Assembly (NCBI RefSeq): GCF_900100045.1
Contig: NZ_FNEA01000025.1
Location: forward strand, 1 to 64,000
Length of the DNA stretch: 64,000 nt
Direction of reading: 5' to 3'
DNA from: Paracoccus denitrificans
GTDB taxonomy: Bacteria; Pseudomonadota; Alphaproteobacteria; Rhodobacterales; Rhodobacteraceae
Shown here: piece by piece, positions 1-17,640 of the stretch
Position numbering within the stretch: position 1 is the stretch's first letter
How the letters are laid out: each line of letters starts with the position of its first letter
Notes under the pieces: model-generated
The model's input: only the letters and a program-made list of their open reading frames with translations
Told to the model about the DNA's origin: nothing
Databases searched by the model: none
Position numbers and translations under genes: made by a program

Positions 1-29
1 CCGGATCCGGCCCTTCAGGTCCCCGCCCT

Positions 30-1685
30 TCAGGTCATTGCCCGCGCCAGTTCCGCCGCCCGCGCACGCAGGGCGAACTTCTGGATCTTGCCGGTCGAGG
101 TCTTGGGCAGCGGCCCGAACACCACCCGCGACGGGCATTTGTAGCCCGCAAGCCCGGCGCGGCAATGCGCGATCAGGCCGGGCTCGGTCTCCTCGCCGCC
201 CTCGCGCAGCTCCACGAAGGCGCAGGGGGTCTCGCCCCATTTCTCGCTGGGCATGGCGACCACGGCGCAAAGCGCGACGGCGGGATGGCGGTAGAGCTGT
301 TCCTCGACCTCGATCGAGGAGATGTTCTCGCCGCCCGAGATGATGATGTCCTTGGAGCGGTCCTTGAGCTGGACATAGCCGTCGGGATGCATCACCGCCA
401 GGTCGCCGGAATGGAACCAGCCGCCGGCAAAGGCCGCCGCCGTGGCCTCGGGGTTCTTCAGATAGCCCTTCATCACCACATTGCCGCGAAACATCACCTC
501 GCCCAGCGTCCGGCCGTCGGCGGGCACGGGCTGCAGGGTTTCGGGGTCCATCACCGCCAGTTCGTCCAGCGACAGGTAGCGCACGCCCTGCCGGGCCTTG
601 CGCGCCGCCTGCCCGGAAGGCGGCAAGCCGTCCCAACCGGGATTCCATTCGTTCACCACGGCCGGGCCATAGGTCTCGGTCAGGCCGTAAAGATGGGTGA
701 CCCCGAAGCCGGCCTTCGCCATGGCCTGCAGCACCGTCTCGGGCGGCGGCGCGGCGGCGGTGTTGAACGTCACCTGCTGCGGAAAGCCGCGTTTCCGGTC
801 GGCCGCAGCGTTCAGCAGCGTGGACATAACGATGGGCGCCCCGCACAGATGCGTGACGCCGTGATCCGCGATGGCGTCGAAGATCGCCCCCGCCCGGACC
901 CAGCGCAGGCAGACCTGCGTGCCCGCCTGCACCGGCACCGTCCAGGGAAAGCACCAGCCGTTGCAGTGAAACATCGGCAGGGTCCACAGATAGACCGGAT
1001 GCCGGCCCATCCCGGCATGGATGACGTTGTTCAACGCCATCAGCGCCGCACCGCGATGGTGGTAGACGACGCCCTTGGGATTGCCGGTGGTCCCCGAGGT
1101 ATAGTTCAGCGAGATCGCGTCCCATTCGTCGCCGGGCGGGGTGGCGGCGAAATCCGGGTCGCCCTCGGCCAGCAGCTGCTCATAGTCGAGGCTGCCGATG
1201 GGTTCGCCCTTGGGATGGGGGGCATCGTCGGGATATTCGGCATCGTCGAAGTCGACGACCAGCGGCCGCACCCCGGCCAGGGCCAGCGCCTCGGCGGCCA
1301 TTGCCGAGAACTCGCGATCCACGATCAGGACGCGGCTTTCCGCGTGGTCCAGCTGGAACGCCACGGTGGCGGGATCGGAGCGGGTGTTGATCGAATGCAG
1401 CACCGCGCCCCCGGCCATCGGCACGCCGAAATGGGCGTGGATCATCGGCGGCGTGTTCGACAGCAGGACCGAGACGGTATCCCCCCGGCCGATCCCCCGG
1501 CCCAGCAGCGCCGAGGCCAGCCGGCAGCAATCGGCCCAGAGCCGGGCATAGCCGTGGCGCTGGCGGCCATGGATCACCGCCGGGTGGTCGGGATGGATCC
1601 GCGCCGTCCGCCGCAGATAGGATATGGGCGTCATCGGCTGGTGGTTGGCCGCCGCTCGTTCCAGCCCCTCGTCGTATTCGGTCAT
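30..1685 (-). CDS. Acyl-CoA synthetase (AMP-forming), DmdB/fatty-acyl ligase type
   Basis: This 551-residue adenylate-forming ligase would convert a carboxylic acid, ATP and CoA into an acyl-CoA in the cytoplasm. The phosphate-binding loop YTSGTTGNPKG lies near residue 195, GLTETYGP near 332, the SGDLA hinge near 428, GGENISS near 452 and the C-terminal catalytic lysine in STGK near 533. All core motifs of the family are intact and the length is normal. I start at the ATG at 1685, which has a GGGGGA ribosome site, rather than at in-frame codons upstream. It is the last gene of the long leftward operon, 39 nt after the rhodanese gene. It resembles the clade holding 3-methylmercaptopropionyl-CoA ligase (DmdB), but the substrate cannot be read from sequence. 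Confidence 0.9.
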   Translation of the reverse strand: MTEYDEGLERAAANHQPMTPISYLRRTARIHPDHPAVIHGRQRHGYARLWADCCRLASALLGRGIGRGDTVSVLLSNTPPMIHAHFGVPMAGGAVLHSINTRSDPATVAFQLDHAESRVLIVDREFSAMAAEALALAGVRPLVVDFDDAEYPDDAPHPKGEPIGSLDYEQLLAEGDPDFAATPPGDEWDAISLNYTSGTTGNPKGVVYHHRGAALMALNNVIHAGMGRHPVYLWTLPMFHCNGWCFPWTVPVQAGTQVCLRWVRAGAIFDAIADHGVTHLCGAPIVMSTLLNAAADRKRGFPQQVTFNTAAAPPPETVLQAMAKAGFGVTHLYGLTETYGPAVVNEWNPGWDGLPPSGQAARKARQGVRYLSLDELAVMDPETLQPVPADGRTLGEVMFRGNVVMKGYLKNPEATAAAFAGGWFHSGDLAVMHPDGYVQLKDRSKDIIISGGENISSIEVEEQLYRHPAVALCAVVAMPSEKWGETPCAFVELREGGEETEPGLIAHCRAGLAGYKCPSRVVFGPLPKTSTGKIQKFALRARAAELARAMT

Positions 1686-1724
1686 GCTTTTCCCCCTGAT
1701 CCGCCCGGATGCGTCGGACAATGC

Positions 1725-2117
1725 CTATCCCCTTGCCGGGCGTTCGGCCACCGGTTGGCCGGCCCTGCGCCATTCCCCGAAGCCGCCGCGCAGGGACCGC
1801 GCGTCCAGCCCCATCTCCTGCGCCACCCTCGCCGCCAGCAGCGAGCGCCAGCCCGAGGCGCAGTAGAACACATAGGTCCCGCCCTCGGCAAAGCGAGGCT
1901 TGTGATAGGGGCTGTCGGGGTCGATCCAGAACTCCAGCATCCCCCGCGGCGCGTGAAAGGCGCCGGGGATCAGCCCTTCGCGCTCAAGCTCGCGCGGGTC
2001 GCGGATATCGACCAGGACCACCTGCGGATCGTCCCGCATCCGGGCCGCCTCATCGACCGTGACCGATTGCACCACGGCCTCGGCCTCGGCCAGCAGCTGC
2101 TTGTAGCCGACAGCCAT
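1725..2117 (-). CDS. Single-domain rhodanese-like sulfurtransferase
   Basis: A 130-residue rhodanese-fold protein, likely moving sulfane sulfur through a persulfide on a cysteine. The fold is shown by VVLVDIRDPRE near residues 33-43 and the active loop CASGWRS with Cys86. No signal peptide is visible, so it should be cytoplasmic. Its ATG at 2117 lies 2 nt after the stop of the AhpD-like gene, so the two are co-transcribed. Together with the upstream S-oxide-reductase-type molybdoenzyme it suggests that sulfur chemistry takes part in this pathway, which is inference. Confidence 0.88.
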   Translation of the reverse strand: MAVGYKQLLAEAEAVVQSVTVDEAARMRDDPQVVLVDIRDPRELEREGLIPGAFHAPRGMLEFWIDPDSPYHKPRFAEGGTYVFYCASGWRSLLAARVAQEMGLDARSLRGGFGEWRRAGQPVAERPARG

Positions 2118-2119
2118 GC

Positions 2120-2698
2120 TCAGCGGCCCATCGTGTAGAATTCGTCGTTGGGCCGCATGCTGGACACGTTGGCCAGCCGGTTCGACATGCCGAAGAAGGC
2201 GGCGATGGCGGCGATGTCCCAGATGTCGTCCTCGTCGAAGCCGTGGCCGCGCAGGGTGGCGAAGTCGTCGTCCCCGACCTCTTGCGCGCGGGCCGAGACC
2301 TTCATGGCGAAATCCAGCATCGCCTTTTGCCGGGGCGTGATGTCGGCCTTGCGATAGTTGATCGCCACCTGGTCGGCGACCAGCGGGTTCTTGGCGCGGA
2401 TGCGCAGGATCGCGCCGTGGGCGATGACGCAATACTGGCACTGGTTCACGGTCGAGGTGGCCACCACGATCATCTCGCGCTCGGCCTTGGTCAGGTTGCC
2501 GGGGCGGTCCATCAGCGCGTCGTGATAGGCGAAGAAGGCACGGAATTCGTCCGGACGATGCGCCAGCGTCAGGAACACATTGGGGATGAAGCCGGATTTC
2601 TCCTGCACCGCCTCGATGCGGGTGCGGATATCCTCGGGCATGTCGGCAAGGCGGGGAACGGCAAAGCGGCTGACGGGGGTGTCGGCGGTTTCGGTCAT
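2120..2698 (-). CDS. AhpD-like peroxidase-related protein (CMD family)
   Basis: A 192-residue alpha-helical protein of the carboxymuconolactone decarboxylase/AhpD superfamily, in the group usually called uncharacterised peroxidase-related enzymes. It carries the redox motif CxxCxxxH as C87-Q-Y-C90-V-I-A-H94. In AhpD the two cysteines are the redox pair and the histidine assists. The start ATG at 2698 overlaps the stop of the molybdoenzyme gene by 4 nt, showing translational coupling. Its exact role is unknown; a thiol-disulfide or peroxide-handling function next to an oxotransferase is plausible. Confidence 0.87.
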   Translation of the reverse strand: MTETADTPVSRFAVPRLADMPEDIRTRIEAVQEKSGFIPNVFLTLAHRPDEFRAFFAYHDALMDRPGNLTKAEREMIVVATSTVNQCQYCVIAHGAILRIRAKNPLVADQVAINYRKADITPRQKAMLDFAMKVSARAQEVGDDDFATLRGHGFDEDDIWDIAAIAAFFGMSNRLANVSSMRPNDEFYTMGR

Positions 2699-5010
2699 GG
2701 GGTCTCCTCCAGGTCGGGCAGGATGTCTGCCAGTTGCGATTGATAGGTCCGCATCGGGTCGCGGTTGTCGCCGGCATGGGGGGCGACGCGGATCAGGCAG
2801 GTATGGGCGGAGCAGCCCTGCCCAAAGGCCGAGGTGCCGATGTCGAGCGTCAGCACATTGGGGTTGCCCGAGATTTCCGGGCCGTCCCCGACGGGCGTGA
2901 ACCAGGCCCCGGTCGGCAACACCGCAACGCCCGGCGCGGTGTCGCTGCTGATGCAGGCCGTGGCAAGGCAGGCGCCGCGCGCGTTCCACAGTCGCACCGT
3001 GGCGCCATCCACGATGCCGCGCGCCTGCGCATCGGCGGGGTTCAGCCGCAATTGCTCGCGCCCGTGGCGCTTGCCGGCCATGCTGGCGGCGCCGGTCTCC
3101 AGTTGGCTGTGCAGCCGCCCGGCCGGCTGGTGCGAGATCAGGTGCAACTCGTCCCCCCTTGCCTCGCCCAACCATTCGGCGGGCGGCAGCCAGGCCGGAT
3201 GCGCCGGGCAGTCGTCATGGTCCAGCCGCGCCAGCGTCTTGCTGCCCAGCACGATCCGCCCGCTTTCCGTGTCCAGCGCATTGCCCGCCGGGTCATGGCG
3301 AAAGCCGGCCAGATAGACATGGTTGCGCTGCACCGGAACCGGGGCATGGCCGCGTTCCCAGAAGGTCTCGAAATCCGGCATCAGGAAGCCATGCGCGCGC
3401 AGGGCATGGGTGCGGCTTTCATCGTAGAGATGCCGGATCCAGCCCATCTCGTCCCGGCCCTCGTTGAACTCGGGGCCGACGCCCAGCCGCTGGGCCAATG
3501 CGTCGAAGATGTCGAAATCCGAGCGCGACTGGCCCAGCGGCGCGATGGCCTGCCGCATGGCCAGGATCAGGTCGCAGCGCTTGTTGCCGGCCAGGTCGTT
3601 GCGCTCGATCGAGGTCGAGGCCGGCAGCACGATATCCGCCCGGCGCGCGGTCGCGGTCCACATCGGATCCTGGACGACGATCGTTTCTGGCCGGGTCCAT
3701 GCCTCGGACAGCCGGTTCAGGTCCTGATGGTGGTGGAAGGGATTGCCGCCCGCCCAATAGACTAGCCGGGTGTCGGGATAGTGCCGCGTCTCGCCCTGAT
3801 AGGTGAAGGGCGCGCCGGGGTTCAGCAGCATGTCGCTGATCCGTGCCACCGGGATGAAGCTGTCGATGGGCTTGACCCCCTGCGACATGCCCGGCGACTT
3901 GCCGACGGAAAAGGGCGCACCCACGCCGCCGAGTGAGCCGTAGCCGTAGCCGACCCCGCCGCCCGGCAGGCCGATCTGGCCCGCCACGGCTGCCAGCCCA
4001 AGCGCCGCCCAGAAGGGCTGCTCGCCATGATGGGCGCGTTGCAGGGCCCAGCTGACGGTCAGCATGCTGCGGCTGTCCACCAGCCGCAGCGCCAAGGCCC
4101 GGATCGCATTGGCGGGCAGGCCGGTGATGGCCGCGGCCCAGGCGGCGTCCTTGCGCTGTCCGTCCGGCTTGCCGCGCAGATAGGCCAGGAACTCGTCCGA
4201 GCCGCTGGTGCAGCGGGCAAGGAAATCGGCATCGTGCCGCCCGGCCATCACGATTTCGCCTGCCAGGCCCAGCATCAGCGCCGCGTCTGTATTGGGCCGG
4301 ATCGGCCACCATTCGGCGCCCACCCAATCCGGCAGGTCGTCGCGCAGCGGCGAGACATGGATCACCCGCACCCCGCGTTCCGCGATCCGGCGCAGATAGC
4401 CTTCCAGGTAATGTGCGCCGATGCCGCCGGCCTCGCTTTGCGCGGTGCGGGGCGACATGGCGCCGAAGACCACCAGCGTTTCCGTATTCTCGGCGATGTC
4501 GTCCAGCGTATTGGCCTGCCCGCCGCAGGCACGGTCGTCGCCCAGCACATGGCGCAGGATCACCGGCCCGGCGGCGATGGAATAGGTATCGACATGGCCG
4601 GTATAGCCGCCTGCCAGGTTCAGCATCCGTTTCAGCAGCGAAGAGGCATGATGGAACCGCCCGCAAGAGGTCCAGCCGTAGCTGCCGGCAAAGATCGCGG
4701 CATTGCCGAAGCTGCCTGCGACGCGCGCGATCTCGCCGGCGACCAGATCCAGCGCCTCGTCCCAGGGAACGGCCAGGAAACGCTCGCGGCCCCGGCCATG
4801 GCGGTCGCTGCCCTCGCGTTTGGCCAGCCAGCCTTCGCGCACCATGGGGCGCAGCACGCGGCGGTCGGGTTTCGCCCATTCGGCGACGGAATGGATGATG
4901 GCCGAGGGCGCGGGGTCCAGGGCCAGCGGTTCGACGCCTGCGATCCGCCCGTCCTCGACCAGGATCGTATAGGCGCCCCAATGGCTGCAATGCGGGATGC
5001 GGCGGATCAT
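2695..5010 (-). CDS. bisC: Molybdopterin S/N-oxide reductase, BisC/DMSO-reductase type
   Basis: A 771-residue bis-MGD molybdoenzyme, similar end to end to biotin sulfoxide reductase. It would reduce an S-oxide or N-oxide, or run as an oxotransferase on such a substrate. The motif SYGW gives Tyr111 and Trp113, and Ser144 in DTYS lies 31 residues after the Trp, the same spacing as the Mo-ligating Ser147 after Trp116 in Rhodobacter DMSO reductase. The C-terminal MGD-binding domain (HPAGRLHSQ-like, then NPADAQARGI and VRLWNARG) is complete. No twin-arginine signal or N-terminal iron-sulfur motif is present, so it should be cytoplasmic like BisC. It lies 12 nt after the ThDP enzyme gene and overlaps the next gene by 4 nt. 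The true substrate is unknown. Confidence 0.9.
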   Translation of the reverse strand: MIRRIPHCSHWGAYTILVEDGRIAGVEPLALDPAPSAIIHSVAEWAKPDRRVLRPMVREGWLAKREGSDRHGRGRERFLAVPWDEALDLVAGEIARVAGSFGNAAIFAGSYGWTSCGRFHHASSLLKRMLNLAGGYTGHVDTYSIAAGPVILRHVLGDDRACGGQANTLDDIAENTETLVVFGAMSPRTAQSEAGGIGAHYLEGYLRRIAERGVRVIHVSPLRDDLPDWVGAEWWPIRPNTDAALMLGLAGEIVMAGRHDADFLARCTSGSDEFLAYLRGKPDGQRKDAAWAAAITGLPANAIRALALRLVDSRSMLTVSWALQRAHHGEQPFWAALGLAAVAGQIGLPGGGVGYGYGSLGGVGAPFSVGKSPGMSQGVKPIDSFIPVARISDMLLNPGAPFTYQGETRHYPDTRLVYWAGGNPFHHHQDLNRLSEAWTRPETIVVQDPMWTATARRADIVLPASTSIERNDLAGNKRCDLILAMRQAIAPLGQSRSDFDIFDALAQRLGVGPEFNEGRDEMGWIRHLYDESRTHALRAHGFLMPDFETFWERGHAPVPVQRNHVYLAGFRHDPAGNALDTESGRIVLGSKTLARLDHDDCPAHPAWLPPAEWLGEARGDELHLISHQPAGRLHSQLETGAASMAGKRHGREQLRLNPADAQARGIVDGATVRLWNARGACLATACISSDTAPGVAVLPTGAWFTPVGDGPEISGNPNVLTLDIGTSAFGQGCSAHTCLIRVAPHAGDNRDPMRTYQSQLADILPDLEETP

Positions 5011-5022
5011 GGCTGGCCCCCT

Positions 5023-6567
5023 TCAGACCACGGCTTCGATCAGGAACGGTCCCTTGCGCGACATGGCGGAACGCAGCAGGTCGAAGAAGGCTTCGGCGGT
5101 ATCGGCCCGGGCCGCCTCGACCCCCATGCCGTTCGCGATGCGCACCCAGTCCAGCGCCGGATCGTCCAGGTCCAGCATCCGCCGGGCATTTTCGCCGGGG
5201 GCACCCGCGCCGACGTTCTGCAACTCTCCATGCAGGATCTTGTAGAGGCGGTTGGCAAAGACGATGGTCACCACGTCCAGCCGCTCTCGCGCCTGCGTCC
5301 ACAGGCCCTGCACCGTATACATGCCGCTGCCGTCGGCTTGCAGCCCGATCACCTTGCGGTCGGGGCAAGCCACGGCGGCGCCGGTGGCCATGGGGATGCC
5401 CTCGCCGATGGAGCCGCCGGTCAGTTGCAGGAAATCATGCGGCGCGGCGCCATGGGTCGAGCGGAAGAAGTCCCGCCCCGAGGTTATGGATTCGTCGCAG
5501 ACGATGGCGTCTTGCGGCATCAGATGCGCCAGCGCGATGGCGATGGCGTCCGGGGTCAGCGCGCCGCCGGGCATGTCCGGCGCGCCGTGTTCCGCCAGTC
5601 GCGGGGCAGGGGCCAGGCCGGTTTCCCCGGCCAGCGCGGCGATGGCGGCGGGCAGGTCATCGTCTGCGTCCGCCATGGCGATCACCCGGCAACCTTCGGG
5701 CAGCATCGAGCCGGGCTTGCCGGGATAGGCGAAGAAGCCGACCGGGGCATTGGCGCCGATCAGCACCAGTTGCTCGGTTTCGGCGAAGGTCGCCAGCGCC
5801 TGGTCGATGACATACGGAACGCGGTCCAGCGCCACCCGGCCCGCGCCGCGCTGCATCCGGGCATTGGCCTGCTGCGCCATGACGCGGGCATCGGTCTTTT
5901 GTGCGATACGGTCCAGCATCTCGGTCTGTGGCGCGCGCAGGGCGCGGCCGGTGACGAGGATGGTGGTGCGCTTGCCATTGCGCAGTGCCTCGGCCGCCTC
6001 GCGGATGCGGGCGGGATCGGGCGCGGCGGGGGCGGCGGGAACCACCGCTGCCGGGACCGGGGCCGAGGTCTCGGTCCAGGCGGCGTCGGCATGCAGGATC
6101 AGCGTGGCGATGCCGCCCGCGCCGGCCCGCGCCGCCGCGATGGCCTCGGCGGTGCGTTGGCCCACGGCCTCGGCGGTCTCGGCCCGGCCGATCCAATGCG
6201 ACATCGGCCGGGCGAGGCTGTCGATGTCGCTGGTCAGCGGCGCGTCGAGGGCCAGGTGGCAGGTCGCATGGTCGCCCACCACGTTGACCATGGGCGAGCG
6301 CGCGCGCCGCGCGTTGTGCATGTTGGCAAGCCCGTTCGCCAGGCCGGGGCCGAGATGCAGGAGGGTCGCTGCGGGTTTCTCGGCCATGCGCGCATAACCG
6401 TCGGCGGCGCCGGTCACCACGCCCTCGAACAGGCCCAGCACGCAGCGCATCCGCGGCTGGCGGTCCAGCGCCGCGACGAAATGCATCTCGGAGGTGCCGG
6501 GATTGGCGAAGCAGGTGTCGATGCCGTTCGCCAGCAGGGTTTCGCACAGAAGATCGGCGCCGTTCAT
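5023..6567 (-). CDS. Thiamine-diphosphate-dependent enzyme, acetolactate synthase/benzoylformate decarboxylase-like
   Basis: A 514-residue ThDP enzyme with the three-domain layout of acetolactate synthase and 2-keto acid decarboxylases. The catalytic glutamate is Glu48 in LFEGVVTGAADGYARM, and the cofactor motif runs from ADGSGMYT near residue 410 to an Asn about 27 residues later. FAD-binding residues cannot be judged by eye. The ATG at 6567 overlaps the kinase stop by 4 nt. It is somewhat shorter than acetolactate synthase (about 560-590), which favours a decarboxylase or lyase of a 2-keto acid made by the neighbouring dehydrogenase. Databases often label this clade acetolactate synthase large subunit; no small subunit is nearby. 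Confidence 0.87.
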   Translation of the reverse strand: MNGADLLCETLLANGIDTCFANPGTSEMHFVAALDRQPRMRCVLGLFEGVVTGAADGYARMAEKPAATLLHLGPGLANGLANMHNARRARSPMVNVVGDHATCHLALDAPLTSDIDSLARPMSHWIGRAETAEAVGQRTAEAIAAARAGAGGIATLILHADAAWTETSAPVPAAVVPAAPAAPDPARIREAAEALRNGKRTTILVTGRALRAPQTEMLDRIAQKTDARVMAQQANARMQRGAGRVALDRVPYVIDQALATFAETEQLVLIGANAPVGFFAYPGKPGSMLPEGCRVIAMADADDDLPAAIAALAGETGLAPAPRLAEHGAPDMPGGALTPDAIAIALAHLMPQDAIVCDESITSGRDFFRSTHGAAPHDFLQLTGGSIGEGIPMATGAAVACPDRKVIGLQADGSGMYTVQGLWTQARERLDVVTIVFANRLYKILHGELQNVGAGAPGENARRMLDLDDPALDWVRIANGMGVEAARADTAEAFFDLLRSAMSRKGPFLIEAVV

Positions 6568-8054
6568 GGGGTCTCCATCAGTTTTTCGGCCTGTTCGCGC
6601 AGATCGGAGAGCGGTTCCCAGAACGGGGACACGGCCTCCAGCAGGGTGGCGAACAGACGGTATTTGTCTTCGGCATAGGCTGCGACGGGGCCGGGGTCGG
6701 GCGCAAGGCCGTGCCCGGTCAAACCGACCCATGGCGCGGGGTCGCGGGCGTCCAGCAGGAAGCGCGCGGCGATGGCGGCAAGGCCGCGCAGGCCGGCATG
6801 GCTGCCGGGACTGCGCTGCACCGTGCAGCCGGTGACGGTCGCAAGGAACTGGGCGAAATGTTCGTCGCCCGCCAACCCGCCGCCCAGCGACAAGGCACCA
6901 CCGGGCGCGCCCATCACCGCGTGGCTGGCGCGGGTGACGAAGGCCAGCGCCTCGCGCCCCGCCCAGGCAATTTGCGCGGGCGTGGCGGCTGCGGTCAGGC
7001 CGATGATCGCGCCCGAGGCATGGGGGTCGGTCCAGGGTGCGCGCTCTCCGCCCGGTTCAAGGAAGGGGTGCAGGATCAGGGCGGAATAATCCGGCGCGGG
7101 TGCGGCGGGCAGGTCGGCAAAGCGGCGCGACAGGTGATGCAGCAGCGTGGCGCCATTGAAGCAAGGATGAAAGCACAGATAGCCCGACCCCAGAGCGAAT
7201 TGCTGGATCATCGCGCCGGCGGGAGCCTGCGGCATGGCGGTCGGGTCGTCCAGCAGGCAGGCATGGATCGCGCTGGTGCCGAAGATCGAGGCGCGGCCGA
7301 CGCCGGCCCGGCTGCCCAGCCCCAGCCCGATCAGTGTCGCCTGCACATCGCCCGGTCCCAGCAGCACCGGCAGGCCCGGCGGCAGGCCGGTCGCTTCGGC
7401 AGCGGCTTGGGACAGCTCGGCCCGTGCCGCGCCGACGGGGGTCAGGTCGGGCAGCAGATCGGCTCCGCGCGACAGGCCAAGGCTTTCCGCCACCACCGGC
7501 GCCAGCGCGCCGCTGCGCCAGTCGCCCCAGACCGGCAGCAGCGCCGTCGGCTCGGCCATCAGCCGCCCGGTCAGCGCCAGGAACAGCCATTCCTTCGCCC
7601 GCAGGGCATGGGCGATGCGGGCATGGCGGGTGGGGTCGTTTTGCTGAAGCCACAGAAGCTGCAGGCTGGCCGAGGCGGCGGTCGGCCGCGTCCCGGTCGC
7701 CGCCTGCACCGCGTCCAGCGCCGGCGCCATCGCGGCCACCAACCCGCGCGCCCGTCCGTCGAGCCAGGTCAGCGCCCGTCCGACCGGCTGGCCACCCGCA
7801 TCCACCGGCCAGAGCCCGTCGCCCTGCCCGGTGACGATCAGCCCCGCGAAGGGCTCCGTCACCTGCGCCGCGCAATCGTGCAGCACGGACAGCGCTTCGG
7901 CGCGCGTGCGGTGCATGTCCTGTTCGACCCGCGCGCCCTCGCGTTGCAGCGCGCCGTTCGGGCGCTCGGCCTGGGCCAGGAGGCGCCCGCCGCCGTCGAA
8001 GGCCGCCGCCTTGACCGAGGTCGTGCCGGAATCGAGGCAAAGCAGAACAGCCAT
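6564..8054 (-). CDS. FGGY-family carbohydrate kinase
   Basis: A 496-residue sugar or polyol kinase of the xylulokinase/LyxK type. The N-terminal phosphate motif LCLDSGTTSVK (residues 5-15), the substrate/ATP region GPGDVQATLIGLGLG and the adenosine loop SLGGGLAGDEHF are all visible, and the length is typical. It should phosphorylate a small sugar or sugar acid for the class II aldolase whose gene it overlaps by 1 nt (TGATG). The ATG at 8054 is favoured over an upstream in-frame alternative because it begins the conserved MAVLLCLDSGTT segment and gives the tight overlap. Confidence 0.9.
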   Translation of the reverse strand: MAVLLCLDSGTTSVKAAAFDGGGRLLAQAERPNGALQREGARVEQDMHRTRAEALSVLHDCAAQVTEPFAGLIVTGQGDGLWPVDAGGQPVGRALTWLDGRARGLVAAMAPALDAVQAATGTRPTAASASLQLLWLQQNDPTRHARIAHALRAKEWLFLALTGRLMAEPTALLPVWGDWRSGALAPVVAESLGLSRGADLLPDLTPVGAARAELSQAAAEATGLPPGLPVLLGPGDVQATLIGLGLGSRAGVGRASIFGTSAIHACLLDDPTAMPQAPAGAMIQQFALGSGYLCFHPCFNGATLLHHLSRRFADLPAAPAPDYSALILHPFLEPGGERAPWTDPHASGAIIGLTAAATPAQIAWAGREALAFVTRASHAVMGAPGGALSLGGGLAGDEHFAQFLATVTGCTVQRSPGSHAGLRGLAAIAARFLLDARDPAPWVGLTGHGLAPDPGPVAAYAEDKYRLFATLLEAVSPFWEPLSDLREQAEKLMETP

Positions 8055-8731
8055 CAGGACGCCTGGCGCAGCCCTTCCAGCGCGGCGCTGCTTTGCTGGC
8101 CATAGGTCTTGAACTTGACCAGGACTTCGGCGATCTGCTCGTCCGACAGCACCGGCGGCTCGCCCAGGGGCAAGCACAGCAGGTATTGCCTGGCCAGTTC
8201 CTCGACCGTGACGGCCAGCGCCAGTGCACGGGCGATAGTGGCATGGGCGGCGATGACGCCGTGATGCGCCATCAGGCAGGCGCGGCGCCCCTCCAGCGCG
8301 GCGACCACGCGGTCGGCCAGTTCCTGCGTGCCGAACAGTTCATAGGGTGCGCAGCGGATGCTGTTGCCGCCGGCGGCGGCGATGACGTAATGGATCGCAG
8401 GGATTTCGCGCCCCAGGATCGACAGCGCCGTGGCATGGGTCGAATGGGTATGCACCACCGCGTTCAGGTCGGGCCGCGCCTGCAGGATGTCGCGATGAAA
8501 GCGCCATTCGGACGAGGGCTGGACCGCGCCTTCATAGGTCGCGTCCCAGTTCATCGCCACGACATGTTCCGGTTGCAGCTTGTCATAGGGGATGCCGGTG
8601 GGCGAGATCAGGAAGCCGTCGCCGTAACGGACGCTGATATTGCCCGAGGTGCCCTTGTTGATGCCCAGCCGGTTCATGGCGCGGCAGGATTCGATCAGCT
8701 CAAGACGCAGGGCGCGTTCTTCGTCGGTCAT
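8054..8731 (-). CDS. Class II aldolase/adducin family protein (FucA-like)
   Basis: A 225-residue zinc aldolase or epimerase close in layout to L-fuculose-1-phosphate aldolase. The zinc histidines His94 and His96 (VVHTHSTHA) and His156/157 (MAHHGV), and the acid/base Glu75 (PSSEW), match FucA in order and position. GTSGNISVR near residue 27 is the phosphate-binding loop. With the adjacent FGGY kinase it forms a kinase-aldolase pair for a phosphorylated sugar or sugar acid. I start at ATG 8731; a GTG four codons upstream would overlap the preceding gene by 4 nt and is possible. Confidence 0.9.
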   Translation of the reverse strand: MTDEERALRLELIESCRAMNRLGINKGTSGNISVRYGDGFLISPTGIPYDKLQPEHVVAMNWDATYEGAVQPSSEWRFHRDILQARPDLNAVVHTHSTHATALSILGREIPAIHYVIAAAGGNSIRCAPYELFGTQELADRVVAALEGRRACLMAHHGVIAAHATIARALALAVTVEELARQYLLCLPLGEPPVLSDEQIAEVLVKFKTYGQQSSAALEGLRQAS

Positions 8732-8739
8732 GGGATGCC

Positions 8740-9786
8740 TCACTTGCAGGGATAGAGCGGCGGCTTGCCGTCAAGGATCAGCGCGATGTCGCCGGCGATC
8801 ATGGCGGCGGCCTTGATCGCGGAATAGCGCGAGGCGCCGGCGATATGCGGCGAAAGCGTGACGTTGGGCAGCCTCAGCAGCGGCCAGTCGGCGGGCGGCG
8901 GCTCGGGCTCGAACGTATCCAGCGCGGCGCCGCGCAACTGTCCCGAAACCAGCGCGTCGTAAAGCGCGTCATAGTCCAGCACCTGCCCGCGCGTGGTGTT
9001 CACGATATAGCCGCCGGGCTTCATCATCGCGATCCGTGCGCGAGAGATCATGCCCCTGGTCTGGGGCGTGACGCGGGGGTGCAGCGTCACCACGTCGGCG
9101 CGGGCCATCAGGTCGTCCAACTCGGCCTTTTCGAAGCCGGCGGCCGTTTCCTCGGGCGTCAGCTCCTTGAACGGGTCGTAGATCAGGATGCCGCAGCCAA
9201 AGGGTTGCAGCAGCCGCGCGACCCGTGTGCCGATGTCGCCATAGCCGACGATGCCGACGGTCAGCTCGCACAGTTCGGGGCCGGTATTGGCGTAGTGATA
9301 GAATTCGCGCCCGAACCGGCCGCTGGCGACGGCCATGTGGCCGCGGATCAGGTTGCGGGTTTCCGCCAGCAGCGAGCCGACGGTGAATTCCGCCACCGCC
9401 GAGGCATTGCGGCCGGGCGTGTTCACCACCGGGATGCCGCGCGCGCGGGCCGCCGCCATTTCGATATTCACCGGCCCGCCGCGCGACACGGCGATGGCCT
9501 TGAGCCGCGGGGCGTGGTCGAGGCTTGCTGCGGTGATCGGCGCCAGGTGAGTGATGAGGATGTCGAGATCGGCGAGGAAGTCGAAATAGTCCTCGGGCCG
9601 GCCGACGAACTCGCCCACCGGCAGGGTGGGGTCGTATTTGGTGGATTTCAGCCGCAGCGGCCAGTCGATCTCCATGCTGCGGATGGTCAGCTCGCGGCCG
9701 GGCAGTTTCTCGCGCAGTGCGGTTTCAAAGAAGCCCGGCTGCATGAAGCCGTCGCCGATGATGCCGATGGTCAGGCTGTCCGTCAT
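8740..9786 (-). CDS. D-2-hydroxyacid dehydrogenase family protein
   Basis: A 348-residue NAD(P)-dependent dehydrogenase of the D-3-phosphoglycerate/2-hydroxyacid family, interconverting a 2-hydroxy acid and a 2-keto acid. The Rossmann motif is VGIVGYGDIG, the catalytic Arg is in AVSRGGP, the Glu in DTFEPEP and the His in SPHIAGAS. No ACT domain follows, so it is not a standard SerA. The ATG at 9786 overlaps the CaiB/BaiF stop by 4 nt. The downstream ThDP enzyme could act on its keto-acid product, which is inference. Confidence 0.9.
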   Translation of the reverse strand: MTDSLTIGIIGDGFMQPGFFETALREKLPGRELTIRSMEIDWPLRLKSTKYDPTLPVGEFVGRPEDYFDFLADLDILITHLAPITAASLDHAPRLKAIAVSRGGPVNIEMAAARARGIPVVNTPGRNASAVAEFTVGSLLAETRNLIRGHMAVASGRFGREFYHYANTGPELCELTVGIVGYGDIGTRVARLLQPFGCGILIYDPFKELTPEETAAGFEKAELDDLMARADVVTLHPRVTPQTRGMISRARIAMMKPGGYIVNTTRGQVLDYDALYDALVSGQLRGAALDTFEPEPPPADWPLLRLPNVTLSPHIAGASRYSAIKAAAMIAGDIALILDGKPPLYPCK

Positions 9787-10982
9787 GCTTTCCTCGCGGC
9801 GTTCTGTTCGGGGTCCGGACCCGGCAGCACCTCGCGATAGCTGTCGGGGTCCAGCGCGCGTTCCGCCATGACTTCGCCCGTGTGCTGGGCAAAGCCGGGC
9901 GGCGCGCGGCGATAGCTGGCGGGCGTGCGCGACAGCTTGATCGGGCTGCCAGTGCCGCGATACTCGCCGATATCCACCACCATCTCGCGGTGGATCGTAT
10001 GCGGGTCGGCGATCACCTGGTCGATGCTGCGCACCGCACCGCAGGGCACGCCGGCCTTGATCAGCCGGTCGGAAAGCCCGGCGCAATCGAAGGCGGAAAG
10101 CGCCGCTTCCAGCGCCGCCTTCAGCGCGTCTCGGTGGATGTTGCGCTGGCTGTTGCTGGCAAAGCGCGCGTCCTGCGGCAGGTCGGGCCGGCCGATCATG
10201 GCGCAGAGCGTGGCGAATTGCCGATCGTTGCCGACGGCGAGAAAGATCGGCTCGGTCCCGGTGGCGAATGTGTCATAGGGGCAGATGTTGGGATGCGCAT
10301 TGCCCGAGGGCCCCGCCACCCTGCCCGAAAGGTAGTAGTTGGGCAAATGCGGATGCAGCAGCGAGACGCCGCAATCGTAAAGGCTGGTCTCGACGAACTG
10401 GCCCTTGCCGCTGGTCGCGCGCTCGCTCAGCGCCATGAGGATGCCGATGGTGGCGTTGAGGCCCGTCACCATGTCCACCACCGGCAGGCCCACGCGCAGC
10501 GGCTGGCCACCCGCCTCGCCATTCACGCTCATGATGCCGCAAAGCGCCTGGATCGCGGCGTCGTAGCCCGGCAGCCCGCCCATCGGCCCGTCCGCACCGA
10601 AGCCCGAGACGCGGCAATGCACCAGCCGCGGGAAGCGCCTTGCAAGTTCGTCCTGGCCCAGGCCCCAGCGTTCCATCGTGCCGGTCTTGAAATTCTCGAT
10701 CAGCACATCGGCGTCTTCCAGCAGCGCCAGCAGCAACTCGCGCCCCATCTCTTGCGACAGGTCCACGGCGATGCCGCGCTTGTTGCGGTTCAGGCCCAGG
10801 AAATAGCTGGCCGCATCGCCCAGGAAGGGCGGGCCCCAGCCGCGCGTCTCGTCGCCTGCAGGGGGTTCCAGCTTGACGACATCGGCGCCGTGATCGGCCA
10901 GTATCTGGCCGGCATAGGGACCGCCCAGCACGCGGCTGGCGTCGATGACCCGAAGATTGGCGAGCGATCCGGGATTGATCAT
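9783..10982 (-). CDS. Family III CoA-transferase (CaiB/BaiF)
   Basis: A 399-residue class III CoA-transferase that moves CoA between two carboxylic acids through an aspartyl-acyl intermediate. Family features are RVIDASRVLGGPYAGQILADHGADVVK at the start, NRNKRGIAVDL near residue 82 and the likely catalytic Asp in LPGYDAAIQA near residue 140. It overlaps genes on both sides by 4 nt. A family III enzyme in the same operon as a two-subunit family I enzyme suggests two CoA-activation steps or two acids in the pathway. Confidence 0.92.
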   Translation of the reverse strand: MINPGSLANLRVIDASRVLGGPYAGQILADHGADVVKLEPPAGDETRGWGPPFLGDAASYFLGLNRNKRGIAVDLSQEMGRELLLALLEDADVLIENFKTGTMERWGLGQDELARRFPRLVHCRVSGFGADGPMGGLPGYDAAIQALCGIMSVNGEAGGQPLRVGLPVVDMVTGLNATIGILMALSERATSGKGQFVETSLYDCGVSLLHPHLPNYYLSGRVAGPSGNAHPNICPYDTFATGTEPIFLAVGNDRQFATLCAMIGRPDLPQDARFASNSQRNIHRDALKAALEAALSAFDCAGLSDRLIKAGVPCGAVRSIDQVIADPHTIHREMVVDIGEYRGTGSPIKLSRTPASYRRAPPGFAQHTGEVMAERALDPDSYREVLPGPDPEQNAARKA

Positions 10983-11746
10983 GCGGGGCTTCCTTCGCGG
11001 GTCAGGGCCGCCAGGTCGCTGCGCCATTCGGCGGCGAAGGCGGGGTAGGTTTCGGCAAGCTCATCCAGCACCCGGCCGCGCAGCAGCGACAGGGTGGCGG
11101 TGTCGGGGGCAGGGGTGGCGGCGGGCGTTTCCGCATGGTCGAAGGCAAAGCCGGTCGCCGCGCGGATCTCGTCCAGGTCATGGCCGGGATGGACGCTCTC
11201 CAGCGTGAAGCCCGGCCGCGCCTTGTCGAAGCGGAACAGCGCCTTGCCGGTCAGCAGCGCGACCGGCCCGCCGGTGCGATAGACGCCGGGGGCGCTGGTG
11301 CCGGGGGCGCTGATGAAATCGACCTTGTCCACCAATACGCGCGGCGAATGCTCTTCGCGGAACAGAATCACGCGCGGCACGGTGAAATACAGATAGGCCG
11401 AGCCGAACGAGCCGGGCCAGCGCACCTTGACCTGCGGATAGTCGCCGACGCCGACCAGGTTCACATTGGCCTGGCCGTCGATCTGGCCGCCGCCCAGGAA
11501 AAAGGCATCCAGCCGGCCCTGGCCCGCGCTGTCGAACAGTTCCGCCGAGCCGTTGGTGAAGAAATTGTGCTCGACCGAGCCAAGGATCGACAGCCGCACC
11601 GGACGCTGTCCGTCGTCCAGCGCCCGGCGCAGCATCGCGCCGGCGGCAGGCATGGGGGAGGAGGCGCCGACCGCGACATGGCGCACGCCGTCGAGCAGCC
11701 GGGCGATGGTGCAGATCAGGATCTCGCGGGGCAGGGCGGCGCTCAT
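10979..11746 (-). CDS. CoA-transferase subunit B (glutaconate/3-oxoadipate type)
   Basis: A 255-residue beta subunit of a family I CoA-transferase. It has the GxGxx core region, and a likely catalytic glutamate in GSVEHNFF. The segment PVALLTGKALFRFD is typical of the glutaconate CoA-transferase beta fold. It overlaps the alpha-subunit gene and the CaiB/BaiF gene by 4 nt each, so the subunits should be made in a fixed ratio. The acid accepted is unknown. Confidence 0.88.
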   Translation of the reverse strand: MSAALPREILICTIARLLDGVRHVAVGASSPMPAAGAMLRRALDDGQRPVRLSILGSVEHNFFTNGSAELFDSAGQGRLDAFFLGGGQIDGQANVNLVGVGDYPQVKVRWPGSFGSAYLYFTVPRVILFREEHSPRVLVDKVDFISAPGTSAPGVYRTGGPVALLTGKALFRFDKARPGFTLESVHPGHDLDEIRAATGFAFDHAETPAATPAPDTATLSLLRGRVLDELAETYPAFAAEWRSDLAALTREGSPA

Positions 11747-12552
11747 GCCGGCACCTCCTGCCCCACGAAGCCCGCCATGTATTCGGCAAAGCCCTTGGCC
11801 GTGCGGGCGGCGGCGGCATAGCGCATCAGCTCATCCGTGTCGGAGGCATATTCGCCCCAGAGGCCATAGGGCCAGGCGCCGCGCGGCGCCTGCGCCACGG
11901 CGCTGACGTAAAGCGCGGGCAGGGTGCCGGCGGCGGTCATCTCGTCGGCCAGCAGGCTGCGGTCCACGATGCGTTCCACCGTGACCAGCGTTTCGCTCGC
12001 GGCATAGGCCATGGCGGCCAACTCGCGCCGGCGGCCGATCCAGACATTGCCTTCTCGGTCGGCCATCGGCGCATGAAAGATCGCCACGTCGGGCCGGATC
12101 GCCGGGATCAGCGCGACGGGATCGCTCGCTGCAAAGGGATTGTCGATCACCCGCCAGTCGGGGCGGTTCGCCAGCACGTCCGAGCCGATCAGCCCGCGTA
12201 TCGGCAGGAAGGGCACGCCCTTCTGCGCCGCCATCAGCCCGGCATGGATCGCGGGGCAGGTGGCGTCGAGGATACGGATATCGCCCTGTCGCACGGCATC
12301 GTTGAACCGCGGCGCGCCCCCGGCCTCGCCCAGCGACACGGCGCTGGTCTCGACCGTGGCGACCAGCCCGGCACCGATCAGCATGTCCACCTGCAGGCCG
12401 CCGGTCGGCACGCAGACCAGGTGCAACCCGCCCGCGCCATGCTCGATCAGCGGCCGGGTCATCGCCATCGAGACCCCGGCGTAATCCACCGGCAGCGCCA
12501 GCGACATGCCCGGCGTGACGCGACGGGCCATGTCGCGCAGATCCTGTGCCAT
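11743..12552 (-). CDS. CoA-transferase subunit A (glutaconate type)
   Basis: A 269-residue alpha subunit of a family I CoA-transferase, partner of the next gene. The fold is shown by GGLHLVCVPTGGLQVDMLIGAG, then GLIGSDVLA and ADREGNVWIG. It is the first gene of the leftward operon. The ATG at 12552 has a strong GGGAG site and follows the conserved family start; reading further upstream would run through the promoter and operator. It is shorter than classical GctA (about 320 residues). Expression should be controlled by the operator 19 nt upstream of the start codon. Confidence 0.88.
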   Translation of the reverse strand: MAQDLRDMARRVTPGMSLALPVDYAGVSMAMTRPLIEHGAGGLHLVCVPTGGLQVDMLIGAGLVATVETSAVSLGEAGGAPRFNDAVRQGDIRILDATCPAIHAGLMAAQKGVPFLPIRGLIGSDVLANRPDWRVIDNPFAASDPVALIPAIRPDVAIFHAPMADREGNVWIGRRRELAAMAYAASETLVTVERIVDRSLLADEMTAAGTLPALYVSAVAQAPRGAWPYGLWGEYASDTDELMRYAAAARTAKGFAEYMAGFVGQEVPA

Positions 12553-12570
12553 GTCGCTCCCTTCTCTTAT

Positions 12571-12589
12571 TGTTCCAAAATACGGAACA
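12571..12589. promoter_or_regulatory. Inverted-repeat operator 1 (likely IclR site)
   Basis: The sequence TGTTCCAAAATACGGAACA is a perfect 6-bp inverted repeat around a 7-base centre. It lies between the predicted leftward promoter and the start codon of the CoA-transferase operon. A second, nearly identical copy precedes the divergent ABC operon. Assignment to the IclR regulator at 16885 is inferred from location and from the GTTC/GAAC arms that many IclR-family operators have. Confidence 0.7.
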
Positions 12590-12727: not shown

Positions 12728-12746
12728 CGTTCTACAATACGGAACG
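12728..12746. promoter_or_regulatory. Inverted-repeat operator 2 (likely IclR site)
   Basis: CGTTCTACAATACGGAACG shares the core GTTCYAMAATACGGAAC with operator 1 and lies immediately upstream of the ribosome site of the ABC ATPase gene. The centres of the two copies are about 157 bp apart, so one regulator dimer or tetramer could control both divergent operons. Confidence 0.7.
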
Positions 12747-12755
12747 AAAGGGGAG

Positions 12756-13903
<1,148 letters not shown>

Positions 13904-13907
<4 letters not shown>

Positions 13908-15679
13908 GCGACGCGACCCTTGCCGCCTCCCGCACGCCCCTGGCACAGCGGCTGAAAAGCCCGGTGCTGCTGCTGGTGCCGGCGGTGCTGTTCCTGGCGG
14001 TGATCTACCTGCTGCCGCTGATCGACCTGTTCCGGGTCAGCATGTCCGGCCCGACCTGGTCCACGCATTTCGAGCGGGTGTTCTCGGTTCCACTTTACTG
14101 GGAATCGCTGATCCGCACCATGCAGATTGCCTTTACGGTGGCCTGCCTCTGCGCGCTGCTGGGCTATCCCACGGCGCTGCTGATCCATCGCACGCGCGGC
14201 ATCGCCCAGATCCTGATCGCGACGGCGGTGGTCCTGCCCTATTTCATCGCCATCCTGATCCGCACCTATGCCTGGATGGTGCTGCTGGGGCGCAACGGCC
14301 CGATCAACAAGCTGCTGCAAACGCTGGGGCTGATCGACACGCCGCTGGCGCTGCTGTTCAACCGGGGCTCGGTGCTCTTGGGCATGACGGCGGTGCTGTT
14401 GCCGCTGATGGTGCTCAGCATCTATGCCTCGGTGGCGCGGCTGGACACCAGCCTGACGCGCGCGGCGCTGGCCTCGGGCGCGGGGCCGCTGGCGGTGTTC
14501 TGGCGCGTGCTGCTGCCGCTGACGCTGCCGGGGATCGGCGCGGGTTTCCTGCTGGTCTTCGTGGCCGGGCTGGGGTTTTTCATCACGCCGACGCTGCTGG
14601 GCGGTCCGGGGGACCAGATGTTCGCCATGCACATCACCCAGCAGGCCGATTCCATTACCGGCGAGGGTTTCTTGCAGGCCCTTGCCGTGGTGCTGCTGGT
14701 CATCACCCTGGTCGTGGTCGGCATCGCCGGCCGGATCATGGGGTTCGAGTTCATCTGGGGCGGCGGCAAGCTGGGCGATGGCAAGCCCAGGCCCGTCGCC
14801 ACGGCAGCCCGCGTGCAGGCGCCGCGCCGGGGGTTCGGCATGGTGCTGGCCGATCTGCTGGGCTGGCCGCTGTTGCGGCTGATGGGGCTGCTGTCCGCCG
14901 GCTGGGGACGCTGGACGGTGCGGATCATGGGCGGGGCGGTGATCGTCGCGCTGGTCGTGCCGATCATCGTCGTCATGGTGATTTCCTTCAGCAAGGCCAG
15001 CTACCTGACCTTTCCGCCGCCCGCCTGGTCGCTGCGCTGGTACGAGAAATTCTTCAGCGACAGCAACTGGATGAACGCTTTCCGCAACTCGCTGCTGATC
15101 GCCCTGCTTTCGGCGACGATCTCGGTCAGCCTGGGCGCGACGGCGGCCATGGGCATCGTGCGCAGCAATATCCGCTACAAATCCGCGCTGATGCTCTTGC
15201 TGGTCAGCCCGATGATCGTGCCGCCGGTGGTGTTGGGCCTGTCGCTTTACGCGCTGTTCCTGAAGCTGGGGCTGGTCGGCACCTATCTCGGCCTGGCCGC
15301 CGCCCATGCCATCGGCGGCATCCCGATCGTGGTGGTGATCGTCGCGGCGTCGCTGCAGGCGGTGGACCAGCGGCTGGAGCAGGGGGCCGCGGTGCATGGC
15401 GCCTCGCCGCTGACGGTGTTCCGCACGGTGACGCTGCCCGCCATCGCGCCGGGCCTGGCGGCGGCGGTGTTCTTTGCCTTCCTGCATTCGTTCGACGAAC
15501 TGGTGCTGTCGCTGTTCCTGTCCAGTCCGCGGATGAAGACCCTGCCGCTGATGCTGTGGGCGGACATCAACTATCAGCTGAACCCGGTTCTGGCCGTCGT
15601 CTCGACGCTGGAGGTGCTGCTGGTCGTGGGCGGGATCATCCTGGCCCGGCCGGTCCTGACACGCGGCAAGCCCGCGTAA
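13904..15679 (+). CDS. Fused double permease of a PotB/PotC-type ABC transporter
   Basis: A 591-residue inner-membrane protein holding two complete binding-protein-dependent permease units in one chain. The first half resembles PotB, with hydrophobic helices from residue 20 and a coupling loop around SGAGPLAVFWRVLLPLTLPG near residue 190. A polar linker of about 60 residues follows, then a PotC-like half with the loop GASPLTVFRTVTLPAIAPG near residue 505. Each loop carries the conserved G of the ATPase-contact motif. PotB and PotC are usually separate proteins, so this is a natural fusion that fixes the heterodimer. The start overlaps the ATPase stop (ATGA). Confidence 0.9.
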
Positions 15680-16884: not shown

Positions 16885-17640
16885 ATGGACAAGGCATTCA
16901 TCAAGGGGTTGCGGCTGATCGAGGCGCTTGCGCTCAGCGATCAGCCGCGGGGCGTGACCGACCTGGCCAATGCGCTGGGGCTGACGAAAAGCAATGTCCA
17001 CCGCCTGCTCGCGACGCTGATCGCGCAGGGCTATGTCCGGCAGGTGCCGCCGCAAAGCCATTACGAGCTGACCACGCGGATCTGGGAACTGGGCAGCCAT
17101 GTCATCCGCCGCATGGACCTGACCCGCATCGCCCGCCCCGCCATGGCCCGGCTGGCCGAGCAGACCGGAGAGACGGTGCATCTGTCGGTTCTGGACGGCA
17201 GCGAGGTGGTCTATCTCGACAAGATCGAAAGCGCCCACCACATCCGCGCCCATACCAGCGTCGGCGCCCGCGCCCCCGCCTATACCGTCGCCACCGGCAA
17301 GGCGATGCTGGCGCAGATGCCCGACAGCTATCTCGACCGCTTCGAGGGCCGGATGCAGCGCTATACCGACACCACCCGCATCACGCTTGCCGAACTGCGC
17401 GAGGATATCCGCATCGCGCGCGAGCAGGGTCATGCCCTTGTCCCCGAGGGTGAATGGCGCGAGGGCATCGCCGCCTGCGCCTGCGCGATCCTGAACCGCT
17501 CGGGCGAGCTTGCCGGTGCCATCGGCATGTCCGGCCCGGATTCGCGCATCAAGCGCAAGCAACTGCGCGAGATCGCGCCGCTTGTGATGGAGGCCGCCCG
17601 CGCCATTTCCCTGGCCCTGGGCTATGCCCCGCGCGTCTGA
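16885..17640 (+). CDS. IclR-family transcriptional regulator
   Basis: A 251-residue regulator with an N-terminal winged helix-turn-helix (VTDLANALGLTKSNVHRLLATL, residues about 24-45) and a C-terminal effector-binding IclR domain (AYTVATGKAMLAQ near residue 132, then an EGIAACACAI segment near 192). It lies 97 nt after the binding-protein gene on the same strand. The paired inverted repeats at 12571 and 12728 are its likely targets. The effector is probably the transported compound or a breakdown product; this is inferred from context. Confidence 0.92.
   Translation: MDKAFIKGLRLIEALALSDQPRGVTDLANALGLTKSNVHRLLATLIAQGYVRQVPPQSHYELTTRIWELGSHVIRRMDLTRIARPAMARLAEQTGETVHLSVLDGSEVVYLDKIESAHHIRAHTSVGARAPAYTVATGKAMLAQMPDSYLDRFEGRMQRYTDTTRITLAELREDIRIAREQGHALVPEGEWREGIAACACAILNRSGELAGAIGMSGPDSRIKRKQLREIAPLVMEAARAISLALGYAPRV

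Follow-up and report, generated by a model that had tools for sequence, protein, structure and literature searches.

Gene content of the locus

The stretch of DNA analysed here, which we call the window, comprises the first 64,000 nucleotides of contig NZ_FNEA01000025.1 of Paracoccus denitrificans; its first 12,800 bases are identical to plasmid 1 of P. denitrificans PD1222 (NC_008688.1). Between positions 30 and 12552 it carries eleven leftward genes of apparently catabolic function, which stand back to back with a rightward ABC importer and an IclR-family regulator. We ask what this locus may degrade, and how it relates to the aldolase Ald2 of the dihydroxyacetone phosphate (DHAP) shunt. A reading made without database searches (the sequence-only reading) had described the eleven genes as one overlapping operon and assigned each to a family. 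Open reading frames (ORFs), start positions and RefSeq annotation, which puts the genes in the same places, confirm the arrangement, and Pfam and NCBIfam matches agree with the families. Neighbouring genes overlap by 1-4 bp or are separated by gaps of 2-39 bp.

Read leftward on the minus strand, the operon begins with ctA (11743..12552) and ctB (10979..11746), the alpha and beta subunits of a GctAB/AibAB/IpdAB-type pair, followed by the family III CoA-transferase gene caiB (9783..10982). Next come hdh (8740..9786), for an oxidoreductase of the D-2-hydroxyacid dehydrogenase family, ald (8054..8731), for a FucA-type class II aldolase, kin (6564..8054), for an FGGY-family carbohydrate kinase, and thdp (5023..6567), for a thiamine diphosphate (ThDP)-dependent enzyme whose closest solved relatives are benzoylformate decarboxylases. 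The remaining genes are bisC (2695..5010), for a molybdopterin S/N-oxide reductase, ahpD (2120..2698), for an AhpD-like peroxidase-related protein (TIGR01926) with a CxxC-x3-H motif, and two accessory genes, rho (1725..2117), for a single-domain rhodanese, and lig (30..1685), for an acyl-CoA synthetase of the PRK08162 type. AhpD and the rhodanese are encoded by separate genes in different frames, the long ORF at 1725-2777 being misleading.

On the plus strand lie the importer genes, for a PotA/PhnT-type ATPase with a TOBE domain (12786..13907), a fused PotB-PotC-type permease (13904..15679) and a solute-binding protein (SBP; 15711..16787) that is 76% identical to PDB 3rpw, and then the IclR gene (16885..17640). 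The nearest model to this regulator, BhcR (NF045644), gives 172.4 bits, under its cut-off of 350, so that it is not a BhcR by this measure. An aldehyde dehydrogenase (ALDH) remnant of ∼175 N-terminal residues follows at 17672..18145. ALDH genes also follow iclR in ten other loci, as copies cut by an edge, and locus L048 has a complete one, placed between the iclR and SBP genes.

The aldolase keeps the motifs of E. coli FucA (GTSGNISVR, PSSEWRFH, HTHSTH and HHG), which we take to provide the Zn-binding histidines, the catalytic Glu (SSEWRFH) and the phosphate loop (GTxGN). Its identity to E. coli FucA is 58% over 202 residues, and that to a Rhodopseudomonas-type aldolase 55%. When aligned with 1eu1, BisC retains the Tyr-Gly-Trp and Ser of dimethyl sulfoxide (DMSO) reductase, presumably active-site residues with the Ser as ligand, and this supports the sequence-only reading of the enzyme as an S- or N-oxide reductase. 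Its score against TIGR00509, 1017.3 bits, is 0.25 below the cut-off of 1017.55, and no export signal was evident by eye.

Two other assignments had to be changed. The ligase had been called DmdB-like, but it scores only 265.4 bits against the 3-(methylthio)propionyl-CoA ligase model NF005426 (cut-off 822) and instead matches PRK08162 with 902.7 bits (cut-off 677). For ctA, the term family I CoA-transferase holds as a fold label but no further: a Cys, Cys99, that is invariant in 11 of 11 sequences occupies the column of an IpdA Glu, which we take to be the catalytic Glu105 and which is mutated in one of two solved forms, 6co6 and 6coj. In ctB, Glu59 is not conserved, Glu69 is invariant with no settled place in the alignment, and a variable residue of AibB falls in a gap.

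Conservation, control and limits of the locus

How widely is this arrangement kept? A genome collection was scanned with an alignment of the kinase, by a method that relies on exact peptide patterns; of 268 matches the best 80 were kept, giving 77 loci. At least 27 of these (L029-L055), a lower bound for that reason, stand at 55% identity or more, and the others at 35% or less. Together with five plasmid loci (L024-L028, of which L024 is the window's own region) they form a set of 32 loci, in which some plasmid and genome loci belong to the same species. Genes were counted as present at 50% identity for the core genes and acuI, and at 58% for gntR, glcD and aldh. In this set the block of operon, divergent importer and IclR gene recurs in Rhodobacterales and Hyphomicrobiales. 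The sugar-phosphate aldolase branch of the sequence-only reading is supported. The aldolase is found in all 32 loci; so is the kinase, although 27 of the loci were selected with the kinase as query. The genes for ctA, ctB, hdh, the ATPase, the permease and IclR are each present in 31, those for BisC and the SBP in 30 (both bisC absences being at contig ends), caiB and thdp in 29, ahpD in 28 (some absences again being contig ends), the rhodanese in 26 and the ligase in 20. Absences in L029, L041, L043 and L049 are partly contig ends. Near the block, glcD-like genes occur in 15 of the 32 loci, acuI-like genes in 12 (beside or inside it) and gntR in 12. The GlcD, AcuI and ALDH partners, like the IclR gene and the operators described below, go beyond what the sequence-only reading had recognised.

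Pairwise identities of seven locus genes over the 27 loci correlate with r of 0.61-0.91, species relatedness being still included in these values, as would be expected if the genes descend together. The block nevertheless varies at its edges. The Cereibacter KD131 locus lacks the ligase, and that of Sagittula both ligase and rhodanese; since these loci keep the rest, the two genes are dispensable, and with this the rhodanese and ligase lose their value as hints of an organosulfur substrate. Bradyrhizobium LMTR 3 lacks caiB and thdp, and in a metagenome-assembled genome of Bradyrhizobium a TRAP transporter replaces the ABC system. Low-identity homologues of the FGGY kinase, class II aldolase and hydroxyacid dehydrogenase are clustered in L056-L105 (Clostridia and Actinobacteria, outside the counts), and may represent an older sugar module.

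The locus is rare. Orthologues of the SBP were found in one of 385 genomes of the class, the window's own (E <= 1e-70), and because of this the distribution was traced through ctA and through the family of another genome, G939. Matches to ctA (E <= 1e-50) occur in 10 of 341 genomes of the order and 10 of 398 of the phylum, several of them in other gene settings.

The eleven genes are likely to form one transcription unit, to judge from their spacing and from pattern searches. Positions 1-18300 contain four sigma70-like matches (1.6 expected), three of them at 12601-12713 and none inside the operon; ten terminator-like matches were found against 7.9 expected, and the four on the coding strand within operon genes are not above chance. 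The region between ctA and the ATPase gene contains a palindrome with a consensus near TGTTCYAYAWTRTRGAACA. Two predicted operators of this kind lie in the window, GTTCCAAAATACGGAAC at 12572..12588, just downstream of a minus-strand -35/-10-like pair at 12633-12604, and GTTCTACAATACGGAAC at 12729..12745, just downstream of a plus-strand pair at 12686-12713. On both sides the distance beyond the promoter-like hexamers is ∼16 bases, a position that would fit repression, and the palindromes are presumably bound by the IclR protein. Among 49 loci, 48 have the divergent ctA/ATPase pair, the exception being L049, and all 48 intergenic regions contain at least one GTTC-N9-GAAC, 39 of them at least two; the 87 sites compare with 0.21 expected from Markov shuffles, a test that is partly circular for the window's own species, as the pattern was derived from the window. 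A refined pattern matches the 5.19-Mb own genome only twice, both times at this locus, and its reversed control not at all.

The varied enzyme families, the plasmid location and the duplicated, rearranged segment at the ligase end might suggest that catabolic genes simply came together by chance on a plasmid. We give this almost no weight, given the synteny across families and two orders, the shared operator motif and the tight gene spacing. The comparison of neighbourhoods that the sequence-only reading had proposed as a check thus contradicts chance assembly, and synteny and operator motif together uphold its view of one coherent catabolic unit.

The ligase end itself is complex. The first base of the window lies at the end of a contig (G000:C68:1 in its own genome), and bases 1-2009, covering the ligase and most of the rhodanese, are repeated without mismatch at G000:C36:1-2009. 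In closed NC_008688, whose gene table is incomplete, an opposite-strand hypothetical gene and groES/groEL are listed next to the left of the ligase, so the operon seems to end there. An acuI-gntR pair (83% and 73%) lies on another contig of the own genome, behind a copy of the ligase end. Downstream of the C36 repeat are genes for a purine/cytosine-type permease, an amidohydrolase and an M20 peptidase-family protein; a third contig, C75, shares only window positions 1-275 and runs on into acuI-gntR, and P. versutus has acuI-gntR beside the ligase. At the other end, RefSeq annotation of window positions 18306-20974 gives a radical-SAM DNA-modification/repair gene followed by one for a UdgX uracil-DNA-binding protein.

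The ctA-ctB pair also occurs in other settings. Sulfitobacter THAF37 (TRAP variant L107) has ctA-ctB-caiB, bisC, ahpD, an IclR gene, a TRAP transporter and a flavoprotein of PF01494, the family to which some aromatic hydroxylases belong; neither a kinase nor an aldolase was matched in this region. Conversely, the TRAP variant L049 has hdh-ald-kin-bisC, with the contig ending right after bisC. This splitting of the halves is what might be seen if two pathways for plant or algal exudates shared a regulator and importer, namely a deoxysugar route (dehydrogenase, kinase and aldolase) and an acid route (ctAB, caiB, thdp, BisC and AhpD). We consider such an arrangement unlikely, since in 48 loci, of either version, the two halves adjoin a single divergent importer and have one or more operator sites, although the sister version described below lacks caiB and thdp. 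In Diaphorobacter HDW4B, 5-6 kb separate ctA-ctB-caiB from a sulfur cluster of the 3-mercaptopropionate type, with a gene annotated as cysteine dioxygenase and a 3-sulfinopropanoyl-CoA desulfinase. In Pseudorhodobacter turbinis, ctA-ctB-caiB-ald occurs together with a TRAP transporter, thdp, ALDH and a second, truncated thdp, and in L141 ctA-ctB-bisC-ahpD-acuI are consecutive. A ketol-acid reductoisomerase-like gene (L132:18265-19305, in a genome of the window's family) stands beside ctA, ctB, caiB, thdp, ahpD and a TAXI-TRAP transporter. No clear pathway emerged from the ctA/ctB settings of L132, L140, L142, L143 and L144, in partial scans, or of L134, in one ORF.

A sister version and its apparent link to Ald2

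Sixteen genomes of a single family (f171) carry a sister version of the locus, in which the importer, ctA, ctB, bisC and ahpD are accompanied by a FucA-type aldolase, a PfkB kinase and a short-chain dehydrogenase/reductase (SDR). They derive from the 21 of 248 genomes in the family of G939 that bear the SBP; 17 of the 21 were fetched, and the seventeenth, G1353, is cut by a contig end. The aldolase is 53-55% identical to that of the window. The IclR gene is present in 15 of the 16 loci, the remaining region stopping before its position, and an acuI-like gene (53-57% identity) closes the operon in five; none of the 16 regions yielded a match to the FGGY kinase, hdh, thdp or caiB. The bisC gene of L160 aligns in two pieces. 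Three sister loci (L136, L137 and L153) have, between ahpD and the aldolase, a 254-residue protein (L136:15216-15977) that matched nothing in NCBIfam (E 1e-15) or Pfam (E 1e-4). Since both versions keep an oxidoreductase, a kinase and a FucA-type aldolase, the ketose-1-phosphate aldolase step appears to be the constant one, and two unrelated sets, FGGY kinase with hdh and PfkB kinase with SDR, adjoin this same predicted step. The locus family thus illustrates how unrelated dehydrogenases and kinases can be swapped around it.

Gene order appears to tie the sister version to a characterised enzyme. The names Rhodopseudomonas and Bradyrhizobium for these numbered genomes are inferred: the binding protein of genome G1329 equals PDB 3rpw over 354 of 354 residues, and we take 3rpw to derive from R. 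palustris CGA009. In G1300 and G1329 the sister locus adjoins two chemotaxis receptors and a group of five genes that encode RuBisCO, fructose-bisphosphate aldolase, transketolase, phosphoribulokinase and fructose-bisphosphatase; an alpha/beta-hydrolase gene comes next (the family being tested in G1300), followed by the IclR and SBP genes. In R. palustris CGA009, rpa4638/4639 are reported as chemotaxis receptors and rpa4641-4645 as the cbbII operon (PMC2643473). Counting onward gives 4646 for the hydrolase, 4647 for IclR and 4648 for the SBP, and RPA4648 is indeed assigned to the binding proteins of COG0687 (PMC3223731). Another seven genes, for permease, ATPase, ctA, ctB, bisC, ahpD and aldolase, bring the count to 4655, and Ald2 of R. 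palustris is RPA4655 (PMC5893883). By this count the R. palustris counterpart of the sister aldolase appears to be Ald2 and that of the sister SBP to be RPA4648. One number disagrees, rpa4645 being named as phosphoribulokinase (PMC9431616) where the count gives 4644. The gene for methylthioadenosine (MTA) phosphorylase lies near the end of the G1300 and G1329 genomes, as expected for RPA4821.

Ald2 is reported to be a 5-(methylthio)ribulose-1-phosphate aldolase on the basis of deletion, complementation and feeding with labelled MTA, and deletion of ald2 abolishes the formation of 2-(methylthio)ethanol from labelled MTA (PMC5893883). The same 2018 account places ald2 apart from mtnP/mtnA and describes the R. 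palustris enzymes that convert 2-(methylthio)ethanol to methanethiol as unknown. Thio-pentose metabolism by way of Ald2 makes the sequence-only suggestion of an organosulfur compound joined to a sugar a reasonable guess, even though the particular hints chosen for it, the ligase and rhodanese, were unsupported.

MTA salvage was rejected as the role of the locus. In the own genome the MtnA model had no match (its control matched in 9 of 14; MtnK and MtnN were not searched for) and the MTA phosphorylase model gave 100.2 bits against a cut-off of 274.85, and P. denitrificans therefore does not appear to use the locus in this way. MTA phosphorylase does not track the locus, since 6 of 10 locus-bearing genomes, of both versions, pass its cut-off.

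After 3rpw and 4i1d, the solved relatives of the window SBP include binders of mannopine, agropine and polyamines and a gamma-aminobutyric acid (GABA) sensor, as might be expected if the substrate were of the opine or amine type, with an alditol or sugar N-linked to a short acid, which a mannopine/GABA-type SBP would bind and whose N-oxide or N-hydroxyl BisC would reduce. The eleven genes include no amidase, opine dehydrogenase, deglycase or aminotransferase, however, and the Ald2 link favours sulfur, so that we hold this to be distinctly improbable.

A possible pathway and its relation to known systems

What, then, might the locus do? Our tentative preference, which we would put at somewhat less than an even chance, is that it is an IclR-controlled import-and-degrade locus for a substituted pentose-like or polyol compound, small and acidic or sugar-like, that carries oxidised sulfur (or nitrogen). 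The ABC importer would take the compound in, and BisC would reduce its S- or N-oxide; AhpD, a CxxC protein, might be its partner in electron transfer. The dehydrogenase (hdh, or SDR in the sister version) and kinase (FGGY or PfkB) would then make a ketose-1-phosphate, which the FucA/Ald2-type aldolase would split into DHAP and a 2-substituted acetaldehyde. This aldehyde could be oxidised by ALDH, a remnant here, and activated by the ligase and CaiB; the ctAB pair would act on a CoA ester, with AcuI, in the wider set, reducing an acrylyl-CoA-like product, and the ThDP enzyme may feed 2-keto acids into the CoA branch. We have moderate confidence in the general architecture, an aldol split of a ketose-1-phosphate combined with oxide reduction and a CoA branch, and lower confidence in the presence of sulfur, for which BisC, the apparent tie to Ald2 and the gene setting in Diaphorobacter speak.

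Several points weigh against such a pathway. The identities of 55% and 58% given above mean that the aldehyde part may differ from that of either relative. MtnA was not found in the own genome by its model, and there is no isomerase among the eleven genes. R. rubrum ald2 is reported not to be appreciably regulated by MTA (PMC5893883), and, as R. palustris uses Ald2 in MTA salvage, its place in the operon may reflect recruitment. The reduction and CoA chemistry can apparently run without a sugar branch, since L107 keeps only ctAB, caiB, bisC and ahpD. Finally, RPA4648 was stabilised in a thermal-shift screen by p-coumarate-type aromatic acids (PMC3223731), which are not obviously thio-sugars and were the one class of ligand found in published work on a counterpart of the SBP.

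This last result, obtained for the binding protein that corresponds by gene count and whose solved homologue, 3rpw, is 76% identical to the window SBP, could mean that the substrate comes from plants and combines an aromatic or phenylpropenoid-type acid with a polyol or sugar; the SBP would read its aryl-propenoate, AcuI and the CoA enzymes would act on the side chain, and the kinase and aldolase on the polyol. The recurring AcuI-like reductases and the PF01494 flavoprotein of L107 are consistent with this. No ring-cleaving, aromatic-hydroxylating or demethylating family is present among the eleven genes or in the sister core, though, marine-type Rhodobacterales also have loci, BisC is left without a role, and the RPA4648 screen covered a limited ligand set; an aromatic substrate thus seems to us quite unlikely.

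Returning to the preferred pathway for an oxidised, substituted pentose or polyol, a more specific form of it would make the operon family an outward-facing DHAP shunt for oxidised thio-pentoses, such as methylthioribose sulfoxide or a pentose-thio-propionate, with the neighbours of ald2 (ctAB, BisC, AhpD, PfkB kinase, SDR and AcuI) including the enzymes by which aerobic R. palustris makes methanethiol from 2-(methylthio)ethanol. This is a speculative extension that we think unlikely to hold. The apparent place of ald2 within a conserved operon, next to an importer, a regulator, a sulfoxide-type reductase and CoA enzymes, points to a few candidate genes for the missing shunt enzymes and to a binding protein that could be screened. 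Were an oxidised thio-sugar indeed the substrate, the organic sulfur cycle of soil and sea would gain a new route, which might yield methanethiol or acrylyl-CoA.

Literature searches found no report of this gene combination, and none that was related under 3RPW; parts of it do resemble known systems. The FGGY kinase and FucA-type aldolase recall L-fucose and L-rhamnose catabolism (FucI-FucK-FucA), to which the locus adds CoA, ThDP and molybdenum enzymes. Catabolism of L-fucose, L-rhamnose or D-apiose was rejected, with no isomerase among the eleven genes and the CoA and molybdenum enzymes left over. Further candidates that we set aside for want of support were arsenosugars, riboflavin, pterins, ergothioneine and glucosinolates. 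The nearest solved relatives of ctAB are IpdAB, a steroid ring hydrolase, AibAB, a decarboxylase, and GctAB, a CoA-transferase, ctA differing from IpdA in its invariant Cys.

With the systems that act on dimethylsulfoniopropionate (DMSP; acuR-acuI-dddL cleavage, and DmdB) the locus has in common an AcuI-like acrylyl-CoA reductase, which recurs near it. Unlike those systems, it has no DMSP lyase annotated in five neighbourhoods, and its ligase is not DmdB by the model; catabolism of DMSP or dimethylsulfoxonium propionate (DMSOP) was rejected as the principal function on the first of these grounds, and also as it leaves the sugar branch unexplained. The Variovorax route for 3,3'-thiodipropionate and 3-mercaptopropionate (PMC6370202) shares a thioether acid and CoA activation with the pathway proposed here. 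The available part of that account mentions no aldolase or kinase, and the window locus has neither dioxygenase nor desulfinase. Deletion of an acetolactate-synthase-like gene of the Variovorax cluster is reported to have had no effect on thiodipropionate (PMC6370202).

The closest parallel is with the DHAP shunt, or DHAP-methanethiol shunt, of Rhodospirillum rubrum, R. palustris and some E. coli (MtnP or MtnN with MtnK, MtnA and Ald2; PMC5893883, PMC10986504). No MtnA was found in the own genome, and the locus adds an FGGY kinase, a hydroxyacid-dehydrogenase-type enzyme, an ABC importer, an IclR switch, BisC, AhpD and CoA enzymes; in the portions of the two accounts available to us, neither an importer nor BisC, AhpD or a CoA enzyme is named as part of the shunt. 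Common to both is a FucA-like class II aldolase that forms, or here would form, DHAP and a substituted acetaldehyde from a ketose-1-phosphate, and R. palustris Ald2 (RPA4655) matches the sister-locus aldolase by gene count. In effect, the locus could be a version of the DHAP shunt that serves material taken up from outside, an interpretation that we offer as a real possibility rather than a probable one.

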